A DNA stretch of 64,000 bases. Origin: Heterostelium album PN500 (lineage: Eukaryota; Evosea; Eumycetozoa; Acytosteliales; Acytosteliaceae). The notes beneath the pieces are model-generated. The model saw only the letters and a program-made list of their open reading frames with translations. It made no database searches and was not told where the DNA came from. This document shows, in pieces, positions 14,986-26,102 of the stretch (position 1 is the stretch's first letter; the number at the start of each line of letters is the position of its first letter). Both the position numbers and the translations under genes were made by a program. The stretch covers positions 558,001 through 622,000 of the forward strand of contig NW_008805086.1 of NCBI RefSeq assembly GCF_000004825.1, written 5' to 3'.

Positions 14986-15225
14986 ATACAAGTATAAATC
15001 ACCTGTCTTTTATTATCTCAAAACAAACAACAACATTTATTAAATAAAATCATCATTATTATTTTAATCATTCTGTAGATTATTATAATCATTTAAATAT
15101 AAAGATAATGTTTTTACATTTTGTTTTATAAAGGTTTTATGTTATTTTATTTATTCAATAAAGTTTTACAATTATGTAATCGACGTCGTTTGATGAGTGG
15201 ATGAATGATTGATTCGTTTGTTTGT

Positions 15226-16086
15226 TTAAAGATCTCTTTCAAAGTCATAATCTCTTGAGACATTGCAAAAACCTTGGTATCTCAAAGATACAACCAATCC
15301 ACCATTGACATACTCGTAAATACAATCACAGTTGGTTTGAGTGCTCTTCCAAACGAAAGTGAGTGTGGCATTTGGTACTTTCTCAGCGAATGCTTCTTTG
15401 ACCATTTCATCTTTGACACGATTGATGATATTGCCAGAGGTCTTCTCCAATGCATCTAAATACATTCCTGCGAATGATTTTTGGTGGTCTGCATTGAATG
15501 ATTGGAATAACTTCAATGCAACTGCTGGTTCCATCAATGACCATGTTTGTCCGGTTGCTTTTGAGAGGTTGGCCAGGTAAGTGTCGAATCTTGGTTGAAG
15601 TCTGGTCATTTCGAGTGCCACTTCGAATGGATATCCACCAGCACCTGGCAGTGATTCAATGATCTTGAAGTGGGAGGAATTTGGTGAGTTCACTGGACAT
15701 TTGAAGAGGATTGTCATGACTCCGCCATCGAATCTGAGACGATAGTATTCATATTTGTTGGTTTCATCAGTGTCGACTGTGATAATGACCTTCTTGGCAG
15801 AAACGGCATCCAAAAGTGCTTCTTTTCTAAAGGTTGGGTTCTCGCCATTCAAGAATTGTTTGAGAGCATCACGAAGTGCTTCCATCACTTGAGAGTATAA
15901 GAATGTTCCTGGTGCTTCTTTGGAGTAACATGAGAATGTCTTTCCTTCCAAATAGTTTGAGAAACCATCCAAATCGAATTGATATTCCCATTCTTGACCA
16001 ACCAGATCAGCAATTTCCTTTGAGTATTTGGCTAAAGCTGGTTCTTTCTCCTTCAAGTTCTTTCTTGCTACTAATGGGAATGGCAT
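15226..16086 (-). CDS. Unknown 286-aa protein, inverted-repeat copy 1
   Basis: Single-exon gene from ATG 16086 ('MPFPLVARKNLKEKEP'). The frame stays open upstream to 16191, but the upstream stretch is A/T-only and unlike coding sequence, so the inner ATG is preferred. Codons are rich in optimal TTC, AAG and ATC types, suggesting strong expression. The protein is soluble, with no signal peptide or TM and no motif I recognise. Features include 'DLVGQEWEYQFDLDGFSNYLEGK', a basic/acidic mixed middle and a Cys pair 'TNCDCIYEY'. The second copy at 25009-25869 is the same except three residues (Thr/Asn, Ala/Ser and Ala/Glu in the 'RFD.YL.NL' and 'MEP.VAL' stretches). It is paired in both arms with a CBM49 secreted protein. 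Confidence 0.85.
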   Translation of the reverse strand: MPFPLVARKNLKEKEPALAKYSKEIADLVGQEWEYQFDLDGFSNYLEGKTFSCYSKEAPGTFLYSQVMEALRDALKQFLNGENPTFRKEALLDAVSAKKVIITVDTDETNKYEYYRLRFDGGVMTILFKCPVNSPNSSHFKIIESLPGAGGYPFEVALEMTRLQPRFDTYLANLSKATGQTWSLMEPAVALKLFQSFNADHQKSFAGMYLDALEKTSGNIINRVKDEMVKEAFAEKVPNATLTFVWKSTQTNCDCIYEYVNGGLVVSLRYQGFCNVSRDYDFERDL

Positions 16087-16511
16087 TGTTGTTTTATTTG
16101 TTTGATAATAGTTGTTGATATTTAATAAATAATAGATATTATTTGATTTGATTTGTTGTTGTTTTTGAATGAAATAATGTTGATCAATCATTAACTATTT
16201 ATAGTTTATAGGTTTATGAGATATTTGAGCAATACAGTATTACATTCTTTAATCAAGGAATGATAAAAGAATAAAATAAAAATAGAGAATATTATTATTA
16301 CATTATTTCTATCTATTTCTCAGATCTTATAATAAAATAAAGGAATAATTAAATATTATATTTATGTAAAATGAATTGATCATCAAAAAAAAAAGAATTA
16401 TCTTCAAAGAAAAAAAAAAATTTGGTCTCATTTTTGGGTATTTATTTTATAAAAAATATTAGAAATTTAATTTAATTTATTTGAATATTAGAATTCTATT
16501 AACATATTTAT
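16087..16511. other. Spacer inside left inverted-repeat arm
   Basis: Non-coding A/T-rich spacer between the 286-aa gene and the CBM49 gene. It is copied nearly exactly (reverse complement) at 24584-25008, including the A/T homopolymers and the 'GGTCTCATTTTTGGG' block. It must contain the 286-aa gene promoter and the CBM49 3' UTR. Confidence 0.7.
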
Positions 16512-16976
16512 TTAATATTGGAGAGCACGGATGAAAAGATTTGGAGAACGCATTCCACGATCGATGTATCCAAAGACAAATTCTTTACCAGTGGCAATAC
16601 CTTGACCATAGGATGGAAGTGAGAAGAATCCATTGTGATATTCGATGTTCCAAACTGAACTTTGATCACGTGGATCCAAAGTGCAATCGGTTTGAATGGC
16701 GATGTTCTTCAATGTTCTTGGACCATAGTTGAAGACATGGACACGGTATAAAGTGAATGATTGACCATTCTCAACCCAACTACGTTCAATGGTTTGGACG
16801 ATTGCAACATCATGACATTGATCCAACAAAACACAGTGACTGACACCACCTTCACAGATACAAACTTGACCAGCACCACATTTGCTTGAATCACATGTTC
16901 CAACAATGAATGTTGAGTTTACTGCTGATAAACATGTCAAAGCGACAAATAACAATGAGAATAAAGCAATCTTCAT
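16512..16976 (-). CDS. Secreted CBM49 carbohydrate-binding protein, copy 1
   Basis: 154-aa protein: signal peptide 'MKIALFSLLFVALTCLSAVN', a short Cys-rich segment (about residues 27-55, 6 Cys: 'GTCDSSKCGAGQVCIC...CVLLDQC'), then a CBM49 domain. The fold's hallmarks are visible: aromatic 'RSW', 'YRVHVFNYGPRTLKNIAI', 'SSVWNIEY', 'FFSLPSYGQGIATGKEFVFGYI'. CBM49 binds cellulose, and in dictyostelids such proteins sit in the slime sheath, stalk or spore coat (family knowledge). The protein is identical to the copy at 21936-22400 and nearly identical to 24116-24583. The upstream 'TATAAATAGATAATATAAA' next to the start is shared by all copies and probably includes the TATA element. Confidence 0.93.
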   Translation of the reverse strand: MKIALFSLLFVALTCLSAVNSTFIVGTCDSSKCGAGQVCICEGGVSHCVLLDQCHDVAIVQTIERSWVENGQSFTLYRVHVFNYGPRTLKNIAIQTDCTLDPRDQSSVWNIEYHNGFFSLPSYGQGIATGKEFVFGYIDRGMRSPNLFIRALQY

Positions 16977-17530
16977 TTTATATTATCTATTTATAAAACT
17001 ATTTTTACTATAAATATATTATTTTGAATGATTTAAAAGTAATGAAAATCATTGTTTAAATAGATTCTTTAAATGCTTTGGTTCTTCATTACAAACGAAT
17101 ATAGTTTAACTAAATTGTAACCTGTTGATTTGTTTTAATATTAAAAAGATCATTGATATATAATAATGATAGATATTACATCATTTATAATCATATATTA
17201 CAACATTATATTTAATAAAATGATTAATATATCTTTTTTGTTTATATATATGAATAAATTTTGTTTTTTGTAAGCAATTTTAAAATGATTGGATACTGAT
17301 AAAATTTTATTATTTCTTTTTTAAAATGTGGTTGTTCTAAATTTTATTTACTCATATTTAAAACAATTTATTAGTTTACTTTGTCAAATATGTAATACAA
17401 ATTCAAACTTATTTGTAATAAACTTTAAAATATTACTAAAAAATATTATATAAAAAAAAAATGTGTTATAAGAATCCATTCTTTGGTTAAAATATCAGAA
17501 GTAGATTTGAATTTTAGAAAGAAAACAACA
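16977..17530. other. Upstream region of CBM49 copy 1 and inner edge of left repeat arm
   Basis: Non-coding. It repeats (inverted) the promoter region of the other CBM49 copies: 'AATGATTTTCATTAC', the 'ACCAAAGCATTTAAAGAATC' block and the 'CAGGTTACAATTTAGT' block. The repeat match ends near 17450 and the following bases are unique. Confidence 0.6.
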
Positions 17531-20102: not shown

Positions 20103-21186
<1,084 letters not shown>

Positions 21187-21935
21187 TCACAGCCATCTAA
21201 ATCAATCAATTAATCAATCAAATCGCTTATTTATATAACATCAAAAAGACTATATTAAACAACATAGTTTTTTTTTTTAAACAATCCTCCTAAAGACAAT
21301 CAATCCCACTTCTTATTTTTAATTAATTTTGTAAAATACTTAATAAATGTATATTGCACTATACCTGCAAAGATTTTAAAAAATTCTTTTTATTTTATTT
21401 CGATATTCAGATGTAAAATGTTATCATTACTTGTTTCTCTGATATATCATCATCTATTCAAAGTAATTTATTCTATATATAGATAATTAAAGATTTACAC
21501 TTAATTATTACTAATATATATTTCTAAAATTTATTTCACTAATAAACTATTAAATTGTTTTAAATATGAGTAAATAAAATTTAGAACAACCACATTTTTA
21601 AAAAGAAATAAAAAAAAAATTTAATCTGTATCCAATCATTTTAAAATTGCTTTCAAAAATTGATTTTTTTTTAAAAAAAAAAAAGATATATATTAATCAT
21701 TTTATTAAATATAATGTTATAATATATGATTATAAATGATGTAATATCTAACATTATTATTATGGTCTTTTATTATTAGAAACAAATCAACAGGTTACAA
21801 TTTAGTAACACTATATTCGTTTAATGAAGAACCAAAGCATTTAAAGAATCTATTTAAACAATGATTTTCATTACTTTTAAATCATTCAAAATAATAAATT
21901 TATAGTAAAATAGTTTTATAAATAGATAATATAAA
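21187..21935. other. Intergenic spacer; includes start of third CBM49 repeat
   Basis: The first half is unique A/T-rich 3' flank of the Rac gene. From about 21541 ('AATAAACTATTAAATTGTTT') the sequence matches the spacer before CBM49 copy 3 (from 23723) and, inverted, the left arm. It includes the paired motif 'GTTACAATTTAGTAAC' at 21795-21810. Confidence 0.6.
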
Positions 21936-22403
21936 ATGAAGATTGCTTTATTCTCATTGCTATTTGTCGCTTTGACATGTTTATCAGCAGTAAACTCAAC
22001 ATTCATTGTTGGAACATGTGATTCAAGTAAATGTGGTGCTGGTCAAGTTTGTATCTGTGAAGGTGGTGTCAGTCATTGTGTCTTGTTGGATCAATGTCAT
22101 GATGTTGCAATCGTCCAGACCATTGAACGTAGTTGGGTTGAGAATGGTCAATCATTCACTTTGTACCGTGTCCACGTCTTCAACTATGGTCCAAGAACAT
22201 TGAAGAACATCGCCATTCAAACCGATTGCACTTTGGATCCACGTGATCAAAGTTCAGTCTGGAACATCGAATATCACAATGGATTCTTCTCACTTCCATC
22301 CTATGGTCAAGGTATTGCCACTGGTAAAGAATTTGTCTTTGGATACATCGATCGTGGAATGCGTTCTCCAAATCTCTTCATCCGTGCTCTCCAATATTAA
22401 ATA
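21541..22403. repeat. Third CBM49 duplication unit (direct repeat of ~23723-24586)
   Basis: A direct copy of the promoter plus coding sequence of CBM49 copy 3. Homology begins near 'AATAAACTATTAAATTGTTTTAAATATGAG' and stops right after the CBM49 stop codon. The downstream spacer and 286-aa gene found in the two inverted arms are absent here. Each of the two direct CBM49 copies is preceded by a Rac gene, so the whole Rac-CBM49 pair looks tandemly duplicated. Confidence 0.85.
21936..22400 (+). CDS. Secreted CBM49 carbohydrate-binding protein, copy 2
   Basis: 154-aa secreted protein with the same residues as the minus-strand copy at 16512-16976, differing only at synonymous positions (for example GTC/GTT and AGT/AGC choices). 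Layout: signal peptide of about 20 residues, Cys-rich linker ('CGAGQVCICEGGVSHC'), then the CBM49 fold ('YRVHVFNYGPRTLKNIAI', 'FFSLPSYGQG', 'EFVFGYI'). It lies 750 bp downstream of the canonical Rac gene on the same strand, but with its own TATA-like promoter. Expected role: cellulose binding in matrix, stalk or spore wall (family knowledge). Confidence 0.93.
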   Translation: MKIALFSLLFVALTCLSAVNSTFIVGTCDSSKCGAGQVCICEGGVSHCVLLDQCHDVAIVQTIERSWVENGQSFTLYRVHVFNYGPRTLKNIAIQTDCTLDPRDQSSVWNIEYHNGFFSLPSYGQGIATGKEFVFGYIDRGMRSPNLFIRALQY

Positions 22404-22739
22404 AATATAAATAAAATATTAATTGATTATTATTTTAATAATAGATAAAATATTTGTAAATTGTTTTTTTATTTTTATATATTTTGATCGATTTGTTATG
22501 ATAATTAATTGATTAACAATTAAAGTTAATTAATTACAACTTTAAATTAATTTTAAAAAAGATAAACTTGATAAATATAATTTAATTTGTTCATGATCAC
22601 CATTTTAATAAATCTGCAGCTTCCATGTTTTCAAATGAAATTTTAATTTTTTATTTTAATTTATTTTGTTTCCTAGGATTATAATTGGTTATCACGATCA
22701 TTTTTATTCGCTATATTATCAATAGAAAACGCTTAAACA
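22401..22739. other. Intergenic spacer
   Basis: Unique A/T-rich sequence between CBM49 copy 2 and the diverged Rac gene. Nothing recognisable beyond A/T tracts and TTAATTAATT repeats near 22500-22530. Confidence 0.5.
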
Positions 22740-23461
22740 ATGAGAGTTCCAACATCTAAATGTGTAGTTGTCGGTGATTCTGAAGTTGGTAAGACTTGTC
22801 TTTTAGTTAGTTATACAACGGGTGGAATATTGCCTGATTGTCATATTACAGTATGTATATTAAACATGTTGTTTACATTCATATGTATTGATTTAATTTC
22901 TTTAGGTATTTGATAACTATACTTCAAATTTAAATGTAGATGGTAAACCTTATGCAATTAATCTATGGGATACATATATATCGAATTCCGATACAAACAA
23001 CTTGACAAGACTTACTTATTTTCAAACCGATATCTTTTTATTATGTTTTTCAGTGATATCTCCTTCGTCTTTTGAAAATATATCATCAAAGGTATCGTAT
23101 TTATAAATATATCATTTCTTACATTTAGTTTATTTATATTACATTTCACTTTTAGTGGATTCCAGAACTTAATGAACATCTTTACAATAATGAAACCAAA
23201 CAAAATGTATCGATTATTTTAGTTGGAACTAAAGTTGATTTACGTGATAACGATGAAGTGATCGCACTTCTTAAAACAAAGAATATGCAACCAATAACAT
23301 ATGATCAAGGTCTCAATAAAATGAAAGAAATCAATGCATCTCTATATATAGAGTGTTCAGGACGAACACATACCAATGTTAAAGAATTGTTCGATGAAGT
23401 AGTAAGAAAAACTTTAAAACCGAACCAGAAATCAAAGAAGAAACAATGTTTTATCATGTGA
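22740..23461 (+). CDS. Diverged Rac-like GTPase, switch II motif lost
   Basis: 200-aa Rho/Rac relative in three exons: 22740-22850, 22906-23091 and 23156-23461. Exon 2 is the same length (186 bp) as in the Rac at 20438, so it is a clear tandem paralog. G1 is 'GDSEVGKT' (Ala of GAVGKT changed to Glu), and switch I keeps the key Thr ('HITVFDNYTSN'). The G3/switch II motif DTAGQEEYD is replaced by 'DTYISNSDTNN', so the catalytic Gln and the invariant Gly are gone. G4 'VGTKVD' is intact and G5 is 'ECSGR'. The C-terminus is polybasic with CaaX 'CFIM' (Met, favouring farnesylation), unlike the Leu-ended parent. The frame is intact over all exons, so it is probably expressed, but GTP hydrolysis is likely absent or altered. 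Confidence 0.88.
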
Positions 23462-24115
23462 TACCATCTTAAAATAAGACAATTAAACCTACTTTATAAT
23501 GTAACACTACAGGCCAACAAAACATAACAAAACATATTAAAAGATCAAAAAAAATTGTACAATTACTGTTAAAATAAACAAATTGATTAGTAAATAGTTA
23601 TATTCACTTTTACAAATAAAAAGTTTAAAATGTATTATACATTTTTAATAAATAATATTTTTAGTAATATTTTAAAGTTTATTACAAATAAGTATGAATT
23701 TATTACTTTTTTGACCAACAATAAACTATTAAATTGTTTTAAATATGAGTAAATAAAATTTAGAACAACCACATTTTAAAAAAGTAATAATAAAATATTA
23801 TCTGTATCCAATCATTTTAAAATTGCTTACAAAAAAAAATATATAAACAAAAAAAAGATATATATTAATCATTTTATTAAATATAACGTTGTAATATATG
23901 ATTATAAATGATGTAATATCTATCATTATTATATATCAATGATCTTTTTATTATTAGACACAAATCAACAGGTTACAATTTAGTAACACTATATTCGTTT
24001 GTAATGAAGAATCAAAGCATTTAAAGAATCTATTTAAACAATGACTTTCATTACTTTTAAATCATTCAAAATAATATATTTATAGTAAAATAGTTTTATA
24101 AATAGATAATATAAA
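23462..24115. other. Intergenic spacer entering right repeat arm
   Basis: The first 190 bp are unique 3' flank of the diverged Rac. From about 23652 the sequence matches the left arm (inverted), and from about 23723 also the third CBM49 unit. It carries the CBM49 promoter, with 'GGTTACAATTTAGTAACAC' and 'TATAAATAGATAATATAAA' just before the start codon. Confidence 0.6.
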
Positions 24116-24583
24116 ATGAAGATTGCTTTATTCTCATTGTTATTTGTCGCTTTGACATGTTTATCAGCAGTAAACTCAACATTCATTGTTGGAACATGTG
24201 ATTCAAGCAAATGTGGTGCTGGTCAAGTTTGTATCTGTGAGGGTGGTGTCAGTCATTGTGTTTTGTTGGATCAATGTCATGATGTTGCAATCGTTCAAAC
24301 CATTGAACGTAGTTGGGTTGAGAATGGTCAATCATTCACTTTGTACCGTGTCCATGTCTTCAACTATGGTCCAAGAACATTGAAGATACATCGCTCAATT
24401 CAAACCGATTGCACTTTGGATCCACGTGATCAAAGTTCAGTTTGGAACATCGAATATCACAATGGATTCTTCTCACTTCCATCCTATGGTCAAGGTATTG
24501 CCACTGGTAAAGAATTTGTCTTTGGATACATCGATCGTGGAATGCGTTCTCCAAATCTTTTCATCCGTGCTCTCCAATATTAA
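24116..24583 (+). CDS. Secreted CBM49 carbohydrate-binding protein, copy 3 (155 aa)
   Basis: Same design as the other two copies (signal peptide, Cys-rich linker, CBM49) but with one local change. The stretch 'TLKNIAIQTDC' reads 'TLKIHRSIQTDC', one residue longer, caused by compensating small insertions within about 15 bp that keep the frame. All other residues match. The altered spot is in a predicted beta strand of the CBM49 fold, so binding could be affected. It lies in the right inverted-repeat arm, upstream of the 286-aa gene on the same strand. Confidence 0.92.
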   Translation: MKIALFSLLFVALTCLSAVNSTFIVGTCDSSKCGAGQVCICEGGVSHCVLLDQCHDVAIVQTIERSWVENGQSFTLYRVHVFNYGPRTLKIHRSIQTDCTLDPRDQSSVWNIEYHNGFFSLPSYGQGIATGKEFVFGYIDRGMRSPNLFIRALQY

Positions 24584-25008
24584 ATAAATATGTTAATAGA
24601 ATTCTAATATTCAAATAAATTAAATTAAATTTCTAATATTTTTTATAAAATAAATGCCCAAAAATGAGACCAAATTTTTTTTTTTTCTTTGAAGATAATT
24701 CTTTTTTTTTTGATGATCAATTCATTTTACAAATATTTAATTATTCCTTTATTTTATTATTATGTTAGATCTGAGAAATAGATAGAAATAATGTAATAAT
24801 AATATTCTCTATTTTTATTTTATTCTTTTATCATTCCTTGATTAAAGAATGTAATACTGTATTGCTCAAATATGTTATAAACCTATAAACTATAAATAGT
24901 TAATGATTGATCAACTTATTTCATTCAAAAACAACAAATCAAATCAAATCAAATAATATCTATTATTTATTAAATATCAACAACTATTATCAAACAAATA
25001 AAACAACA
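24584..25008. other. Spacer inside right inverted-repeat arm
   Basis: Non-coding A/T-rich mirror of 16087-16511, nearly identical. It holds the CBM49 3' end and the promoter of the 286-aa gene, including the 'GATTAAAGAATGTAATACTG' block and a CAAATCAAATCAAATCAAA leader. The open frame upstream of ATG 25009 uses a non-ATG start and is A/T-only. Confidence 0.65.
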
Positions 25009-25869
25009 ATGCCATTCCCATTAGTAGCAAGAAAGAACTTGAAGGAGAAAGAACCAGCTTTGGCCAAATACTCAAAGGAAATTGCTGACCTGGTTGGTCA
25101 AGAATGGGAATATCAATTCGATTTAGATGGTTTCTCAAACTATTTGGAAGGAAAGACATTCTCATGTTACTCCAAAGAAGCACCAGGAACATTCTTATAC
25201 TCTCAAGTGATGGAAGCACTTCGTGATGCTCTCAAACAATTCTTGAATGGCGAGAACCCAACCTTTAGAAAAGAAGCACTTTTGGATGCCGTTTCTGCCA
25301 AGAAGGTCATTATCACAGTCGACACTGATGAAACCAACAAATATGAATACTATCGTCTCAGATTCGATGGCGGAGTCATGACAATCCTCTTCAAATGTCC
25401 AGTGAACTCACCAAATTCCTCACACTTCAAGATCATTGAATCACTCCCAGGTGCTGGTGGATATCCATTCGAAGTCGCACTCGAAATGACCAGACTTCAA
25501 CCAAGATTCGACAACTACTTGAGCAACCTCTCAAAAGCAACCGGACAAACATGGTCATTGATGGAACCAGAAGTTGCACTAAAGTTATTCCAATCATTCA
25601 ATGCAGATCACCAAAAATCATTCGCAGGAATGTATTTAGATGCATTGGAGAAGACCTCTGGCAATATCATCAATCGTGTCAAAGATGAAATGGTCAAAGA
25701 AGCATTCGCTGAGAAAGTACCAAATGCCACACTCACTTTCGTTTGGAAGAGCACTCAAACCAACTGTGATTGTATTTACGAGTATGTCAATGGTGGATTG
25801 GTTGTATCTTTGAGATACCAAGGTTTTTGCAATGTCTCAAGAGATTATGACTTTGAAAGAGATCTTTAA
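25009..25869 (+). CDS. Unknown 286-aa protein, inverted-repeat copy 2
   Basis: Nearly identical to the minus-strand gene at 15226-16086 (three residue differences). Start chosen at 'MPFPLVARKNLKEKEP', where codon use turns gene-like (AAC, TTC, GTC). No signal peptide, TM or recognisable catalytic motif. The 'EWEYQFDLDGFSNYLEGK' N-terminal part and the 'SLPGAGGYPFEVALEMTRLQ' middle look like a folded soluble domain. Near-identity of the two proteins, together with nearly identical spacers, argues for a young duplication or ongoing conversion rather than selection alone. Confidence 0.85.
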   Translation: MPFPLVARKNLKEKEPALAKYSKEIADLVGQEWEYQFDLDGFSNYLEGKTFSCYSKEAPGTFLYSQVMEALRDALKQFLNGENPTFRKEALLDAVSAKKVIITVDTDETNKYEYYRLRFDGGVMTILFKCPVNSPNSSHFKIIESLPGAGGYPFEVALEMTRLQPRFDNYLSNLSKATGQTWSLMEPEVALKLFQSFNADHQKSFAGMYLDALEKTSGNIINRVKDEMVKEAFAEKVPNATLTFVWKSTQTNCDCIYEYVNGGLVVSLRYQGFCNVSRDYDFERDL

Positions 25870-26102
25870 ACAAACAAATCAATCATTCATCCACTCATCA
25901 AACGATAGACAAATCAGTCATCAACGTAAAACTTTATTGAATAAATAAAATAAATATAAAACCTTTATAAAACAAAATGATATTCTATTTTTTATTCGAA
26001 TACTTATATAGATTGTACTATTGTTTGAAAAATTCAAATGGATATTTTTACGCATATTGAATAAATCATGAAATGAATTAGATTATTTATTTGACTTTAG
26101 TT

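Follow-up and report, generated by a model that had tools for sequence, protein, structure and literature searches.

A Rac gene with a rewritten switch II beside its canonical tandem copy in Heterostelium album, a candidate GTPase-deficient atypical Rac

On balance, we lean toward the view that the gene at positions 22740-23461 (+) of a window of 64,000 nucleotides (nts) from Heterostelium album PN500 (G000:C25:558001-622000) arose by tandem duplication of a canonical Rac and turned into an atypical, GTPase-deficient Rac with rewired switches, of the same functional kind as the animal proteins Rnd and RhoH. Since the residues at positions 12, 59 and 61 have all been replaced, the protein has very likely lost GTP hydrolysis, and it is with moderate confidence, as judged from sequence comparison, that we regard the gene as functional. 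The source genome comprises 32.9 Mb in 39 contigs; the window is AT-rich (GC content of 2-kb windows, 0.21-0.42) and its gene content is dictyostelid-like.

The gene consists of three exons with an open frame of 200 amino acids (aa) ending with CFIM and a stop codon (Table 1), and the stop or frameshift expected of a pseudogene is absent from the frame. The product matches the Pfam Ras profile over the whole length of the G domain (profile positions 1-161 of 162, 124.6 bits, E = 3.6e-36), and a Rac1 chain was the best hit of the PDB search (E = 2.7e-58) among the 60 of 195 matches listed. The Rho insert between G4 and G5 is present, with NDEVIALLKTKNMQ aligning gap-free to the insert region of Rac1, and exon 3 has a few additional residues (LYNNET) upstream of G4. 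The C-terminus, KSKKKQCFIM, combines a CaaX box with a basic stretch, as in Rho and Rac proteins, and both the trees and the introns place the gene in the Rac subgroup.

Table 1. Positions of the Rac genes and of the surrounding duplications in the window
Feature	Position	Strand	Remarks
Canonical tandem Rac	20438..21186	+	197 aa; introns 20543-20614 and 20801-20883; used as sister and reference
Atypical Rac, exon 1	22740..22850	+	P-loop GDSEVGKT (G12S, A13E); Phe28 lost; last codon ACA, the switch I Thr
Atypical Rac, intron 1	22851..22905	+	55 nt, GTATGT..TTTAG, phase 0; position same as in tandem copy
Atypical Rac, exon 2	22906..23091	+	VFDNY effector loop and Trp56-Asp57-Thr58 kept; G3/switch II DTYISNSDTNNL
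Atypical Rac, intron 2	23092..23155	+	64 nt, GTATCG..TTTTAG, phase 0; position same as in tandem copy
Atypical Rac, exon 3	23156..23461	+	Rho-insert region, G4 TKVD, G5 CSG, basic tail KSKKK, CaaX CFIM, stop TGA
Large inverted duplication	15202-17378 and 23722-25893	- and +	2118/2160 aligned positions identical
Third, partial copy of the duplicated unit	21541-22408	+	

A first-pass annotation had described a Rac with DTYISN in place of DTAGQE, Glu for Ala in the P-loop and an altered prenyl signal ending in Met, in which G1, the switch I Thr, G4 and a full reading frame with clean splice sites remained. The last two points hold, as the 200 codons are open, both introns are of the GT..AG type in phase 0, and TKVD is intact. 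The replacement in G3 is also borne out, but one inserted codon relative to the tandem copy was overlooked, so that the segment reads DTYISNSD. In the P-loop, the Glu is correct (A13E), but G1 is not otherwise intact, since Gly12 is changed to Ser. The switch I Thr does remain, but it was re-sited across intron 1: exon 1 ends with its codon (ACA), which stands opposite the Pro34 codon (CCA) of the tandem copy, whereas the counterpart of the tandem copy's Thr35 codon (ACT, the first of exon 2) is missing. The CaaX box does end in Met, but CFIM is an ordinary CaaX box and not an altered prenyl signal, because Met is the last residue in 6 of the 20 Rac models from this genome. According to the usual CaaX rule, this ending predicts farnesyl in place of geranylgeranyl.

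Further changes were found at conserved positions. Gly60 is also lost, G5 is CSG instead of CSA (A159G), and Phe28 is replaced by Leu according to the DNA alignment (TTC/TTG, adjoining an inserted codon) or by Ile according to the protein alignment. Depending on the placement of the inserted codon in G3, residue 59 is Tyr or Ile and residue 61 is Asn or Ser; residue 12 being Ser, all three positions are substituted, which is the sequence pattern of GTPase-deficient atypical Rho proteins of the Rnd/RhoH type. The features of a classical cycling Rac, DTAGQE with Gly60 and Gln61 and the P-loop Gly12, are lacking. Lys16, Thr17, VFDNY, Trp56, Asp57, Thr58, TKVD and Ser158 are retained, as are Leu67, Leu70 and Tyr72 inside the rewritten switch II segment, and the 17 residues following DTYISNSDTNNL match those of the sister. 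A column was counted as conserved when 11 or more of 13 reference rows agreed (12 genes of the same genome, including L067 and L072, which both lack Gly12 and the former also Gln61, and human Rac1). Of the 77 such columns, 17 of 33 were lost in the P-loop and switches versus 7 of 44 elsewhere (Fisher p = 0.0012).

The canonical Rac sits 1.6 kb upstream on the same strand, and both intron positions are common to the two genes. The exon lengths (atypical/sister) are 111/105, 186/186 and 306/303 nt, differing by 6, 0 and 3 nt, and the intron lengths are 55/72 and 64/83 nt, differing by 17 and 19 nt. Trees built from 21 rows, human Rac1 and 20 genes of the same genome, joined the two genes, the support being 85/76 with all columns and 93/84 once the switch and tail columns were removed; neither branch was starred. 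In a third tree, with two long rows left out, the local order was unresolved at 80 and both genes fell in a starred set of seven Rac rows; the support of the starred seven-row set holding the atypical Rac was 97/98 without the switch and tail columns and 95/98 in the third tree. Over all columns, the highest identity of the atypical Rac was to human Rac1 (53%) and the nearest row by path was L032, with the tandem copy second; without the switch and tail columns, the highest identity was to the sister (62%). Codons were identical at 69 of 101 sites sharing the same amino acid with the sister, compared with 49/100 for L032, 54/99 for L034, 48/91 for L033 and 41/89 for L080, and the alignment of the tandem proteins, 198 columns including gaps, has 108 identical columns. 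The gene is probably the sister of the canonical Rac at 20438-21186, a relation to which the trees give moderate support. The tandem genes are identical over 33 nt in the latter half of exon 2 (23022-23054 versus 20731-20763), which may be a faint hint of local gene conversion.

The tandem Rac pair sits between the arms of the large inverted duplication, which carries a small CBM49 gene whose start resembles a signal peptide as well as a 287-aa ORF that showed no Pfam match at 1e-3, and an extra copy of the CBM49 gene lies between the two Rac genes. When the CBM49 copies at 24113-24580 and 21933-22397 are compared, LKNIAIQTD is altered locally to LKIHRSIQTD in one copy, with the frame open. 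Of 385 aligned positions in the flank copies (21541-21932 and 23720-24112), 366 are identical. A single recent event duplicating the Rac gene together with its flank was considered and rejected, since the Rac proteins share only the 108 identical columns given above; the flank was therefore duplicated more recently, or its copies were homogenised.

Selection was examined using a purpose-written codon model (GY94-type, F3x4) with 7 genes and 189 gap-free codons; all omega (dN/dS) values given here are rough because dS is near saturation. With free branch lengths, omega was 0.13 on the branch of the atypical Rac, and omega = 1 was rejected (2dlnL 21.5); the difference from the other branches (0.076) was not significant (2dlnL 0.5). 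When equal time was imposed on both sister branches, omega was 0.24 for the atypical Rac versus 0.042 for the sister, indicating that the constraint is about 6-fold weaker than on the sister, and omega = 1 was again rejected (2dlnL 19.0); values of 0.1 and 0.5 were approximately 2 log units under the optimum. The region splits of this analysis, like the L033-L035 comparison described below, were picked after the sequences had been seen. Division by region gave 0.28 for the N part (2dlnL 9.1 against omega = 1), 0.078 for the exon 2 end (2dlnL 11.3), 0.26 for all but the exon 2 end (2dlnL 16.7) and 0.60 for exon 3 alone, where omega = 1 was not rejected (2dlnL 2.18). The NG86 method gave dN of 0.398 and dS of 0.944 between the atypical Rac and the sister, and a branch estimate of approximately 0.7 for the atypical Rac when dS was halved and dN was apportioned with L032 as outgroup; this method tends to underestimate dS under biased composition. 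The end branch of the atypical Rac was also longer than that of the sister, 1.01 versus 0.17 over all columns (approximately 6-fold) and 0.57 versus 0.14 without the switch and tail columns (approximately 4-fold), and its GC content at the first codon position was 0.38, compared with 0.46-0.50 in four other Racs.

A test independent of dS counted how many residues of the sister were kept at conserved and at variable positions, conserved meaning at least 10 of 12 reference rows, with L067 and L072, which lack Gly12, among them. Outside the P-loop and switches, 37/43 conserved versus 46/98 variable residues were kept (one-sided p = 7e-6), and the same tendency was observed in the rest of exons 1-2 (19/20 versus 21/31, p = 0.02) and in exon 3 (18/23 versus 25/67, p = 0.0007). 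Within the P-loop and switches, the counts were 16/33 versus 2/10 (p = 0.11). According to these retention counts, the fold is held by selection, and the switches show no significant constraint of the old type. The survival of the frame was addressed by simulating AT-biased neutral drift from the sister (400 runs, substitutions only): the frame was open in 11.5% of runs at 30 substitutions, 4.5% at 40 and 0.7% at 80, and in 0 of 400 at each of 120, 160, 200 and 252. The first-pass statement that the gene is not in plain decay is thus supported by the codon model, residue retention and frame survival, which differ in their assumptions; a dN/dS near 1 along the whole gene, named there among the results that would speak against function, was not obtained, the equal-time value being approximately 0.24 with 1 rejected. 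The label "neofunctionalised or dominant regulatory" goes beyond these results, as constraint is clearly relaxed and exon 3 alone is compatible with a dN/dS of 1. On this sequence evidence, decay along the whole history of the gene is rejected, and the fold was under purifying selection during at least some of that history.

The 20 Rac-like models of the genome were obtained by our own spliced aligner with a score of at least 201, lower-scoring Ras- and Rab-like loci being dropped. They rest on sequence, and the genome searches scored the best candidates only; some Rac genes may be missing because 22 Rac-Rho genes were counted for P. pallidum in the relevant part of PMC8923023. Nine of the 20 models lack Gly12 and eight lack Gln61, the same eight lacking both: the present gene, L033, L035, L038, L067, L068, L069 and L069b. 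L033, L035 and L068 fall in the same seven-row tree set as the atypical Rac, and L038, L067, L069 and L069b outside it. A CaaX box not ending in Leu was found in 6 of the 8 models without the catalytic residues versus 3 of 10 with them, which is not significant (p = 0.15; L071 and L073, which have no CaaX box, were left out). Other rearranged switches were noticed among these models. At L069 (G000:C15, approximately 36-38 kb), two adjoining divergent Racs have DTACTAE and DTSAEGEN instead of DTAGQE, and in L068 (G000:C4, approximately 1.117 Mb) switch II is mostly deleted (SEVGDYD), with an open frame of 193 aa and the CaaX box CEIL.

L033 and L035 (G000:C2, approximately 1.75 and 1.64 Mb) are intronless and near-identical, lie 106 kb apart, and carry G12K, a replaced T35 and effector loop, an insertion in G3 after DT, Q61N and a CaaX box ending in Met. 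They share with the atypical Rac the lack of Gly12 and Gln61, the insertion after DT and the Met ending (their Q61N corresponds to Asn or Ser, depending on the alignment), but in them Gly60 is retained and both Thr35 and the effector loop are missing, the reverse of the atypical Rac, which has introns. They differ from each other by 11 synonymous and 4 amino-acid codon differences, where approximately 80% amino-acid changes are expected under neutrality (p = 1.3e-5), and omega = 1 was rejected on their tips (2dlnL 21.4). Because these two genes are under purifying selection, atypical Racs can be maintained in this genome, which by analogy, though not as proof, supports function of the gene at 22740-23461. 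The appearance of decay in this genome is exemplified by L081 (positions 591-765; G000:C2, approximately 1.637 Mb), a partial, frameshifted relic of an L033-type Rac that matches L033 at 172 of 174 bases, breaks off after this stretch and contains an insertion of one base.

The relaxation described above leaves room for a duplicate that is dying or recently dead, having worked, perhaps weakly, through most of its past, and whose frame is open only since little time has passed. The long branch, the higher omega at equal time, exon 3 with its unrejected omega = 1, the lowered first-position GC and the simulated frames that stay open at 30 and 40 substitutions all fit this explanation, which is nevertheless rather doubtful: the losses cluster in the P-loop and switches rather than being scattered, the splice sites, CaaX box and basic tail are intact with exon lengths off by only 6, 0 and 3 nt, and the relic L081, with its 174-nt match to L033 and its one-base insertion, looks different. 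Substitution of Gly60 in Ras blocks the active conformation. The replaced Gly60, the lengthened switch II, A13E next to the phosphates and the loss of Phe28 could mean that the protein has no productive nucleotide binding and serves purely as a scaffold or GEF trap (a class i pseudoGTPase or dominant-negative, G60-like form). We find this rather unlikely, since a protein that had given up binding would not be expected to retain Lys16, Thr17, the switch I Thr, Asp57, TKxD and Ser158; it overlaps with the maintained non-cycling Rac that we favor and differs from it on nucleotide binding.

Two further explanations concern the rewritten segment itself. That its altered G3 was inherited from an older atypical Rac lineage with the intronless L033 and L035, and is therefore conserved and functional, is a question of origin and compatible with a maintained non-cycling Rac. 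These genes share the loss of G12, the insertion after DT, Q61N and the CaaX Met with the atypical Rac, seven residues are shared with L033 only (with neither the sister nor four reference Racs) versus four with the sister only, and the AU test did not reject a clade of the three genes (p 0.186 after removal of the switch and tail columns; 0.265 over all columns with two long rows left out). It is nonetheless improbable, since two of the trees pair the gene with the tandem copy and the third is unresolved, the tandem copy has the highest share of identical synonymous codons and the same intron positions, the DNA similarity of switch II to L033 is within chance (p 0.17-0.29), and switch I was rebuilt differently in the atypical Rac and in L033/L035. 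An assembly error, an incorrect gene model or a pair of local frameshifts masking a normal DTAGQE is highly improbable. Nothing was found in support of such an artefact: the other two frames score 11 and 11 against the Rac switch II, where the random median is 10 and the frame as read scores 20, aided by the conserved DT and QT ends; the DNA similarity of the segment to the sister is no better than that of shuffles (p 0.84-0.86), and the intron positions agree with those of the sister. A double compensating frameshift as the source of DTYISN was rejected because no out-of-frame similarity was present and the similarity to the sister DNA was not above shuffles.

For a maintained, non-cycling Rac, we infer the nucleotide state, localisation, partners and current expression as follows. 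The protein would still hold guanine nucleotide and Mg2+ through Lys16, Thr17, the switch I Thr, Asp57, TKxD and Ser158, but it would not hydrolyze GTP and would not sense the gamma-phosphate through Gly60. The loss of Phe28 should permit nucleotide exchange without a GEF, that is, loose binding; Phe28 is the position of F28L, and Rac1 F28L is described as fast-cycling in the relevant sections of PMC9029563 and PMC8072805. The CaaX anchor, predicted to be farnesylated, and the basic tail would seat the protein at the membrane, where the Rac effector loop VFDNY and Trp56 may be offered to Rac partners with no need of a GTP cycle. The output might be a constitutive signal or a decoy for effectors or regulators, its level being set by expression and turnover. 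As to the nucleotide state, the loss of Gly60 and A13E might yield a nucleotide-free or misfolded switch rather than a GTP-loaded one. In the pseudoGTPase scheme outlined in PMC5593906, the sequence points to class ii, or to class i if the loss of Gly60 and A13E are fatal to binding.

Positions 12, 59 and 61 mark GTPase-deficient Rho proteins in the portions of PMC9029563, PMC8072805 and PMC13236570 that treat them, and comparison with these proteins is by likeness and not by membership, because the atypical Rac groups with the Racs of its own genome; the trees comprised these and human Rac1. In Rnd1-3/RhoE, all three positions are changed as well, RhoE having Ser12, Ser59 and Asp61 (PMC9029563, in part). 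The Rho fold, effector loop and CaaX box are likewise retained and both are predicted to be non-hydrolysing. Rnd proteins keep Gly60 and a switch II of normal length, whereas the atypical Rac lacks Gly60, has one codon inserted and has lost Phe28. RhoH resembles it in the missing Gly12 and the changed G3/switch II (PMC13236570), and is characterized by the absence of the residues at 12, 59 and 61 and by a CaaX box allowing both farnesylation and geranylgeranylation (PMC8072805), as far as these sources describe it; the atypical Rac differs in that Gly60 is lost, no ITAM-like motif or LFSINE insert was noticed by eye, and the lineage is another. The loss of Phe28 and the looser nucleotide binding expected from it recall RhoU/V and the laboratory mutant Rac1 F28L (PMC9029563, PMC8072805, in part), but fast-cycling Rho GTPases keep Gly12, Ala59 and Gln61, which the atypical Rac does not. 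Dictyostelium RacJ, compared by its description in part of PMC8305917, is a dictyostelid Rac with a divergent switch I, whereas both switches are changed in the atypical Rac, switch II the most. A literature search found no paper treating any three of atypical Rho GTPases, pseudoGTPases, Dictyostelium and Polysphondylium together. As judged from these comparisons, the class of atypical GTPase-deficient Rho proteins is known, and what is unusual here is that Gly60 is also lost; to our knowledge, the joint loss of Gly60, Gln61, Ala59 and Gly12 with a selected G domain is rare among Rho proteins.

The gene bears on whether Rac function requires the gamma-phosphate switch. The adjoining canonical sister lends itself as a control for gene swaps and knockouts, and the host amoeba can be grown and transformed. 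A broader interpretation, which we consider unlikely as it stands, is that the gene provides a membrane-tethered Rac surface whose partner binding is independent of nucleotide, acting as a competitor or constant signal beside its sister, in a lineage that repeatedly made Racs non-cycling. That 8 of the 20 models lack both Gly12 and Gln61 suggests that this dictyostelid lineage evolved non-cycling Rho proteins independently, in parallel to Rnd and RhoH.
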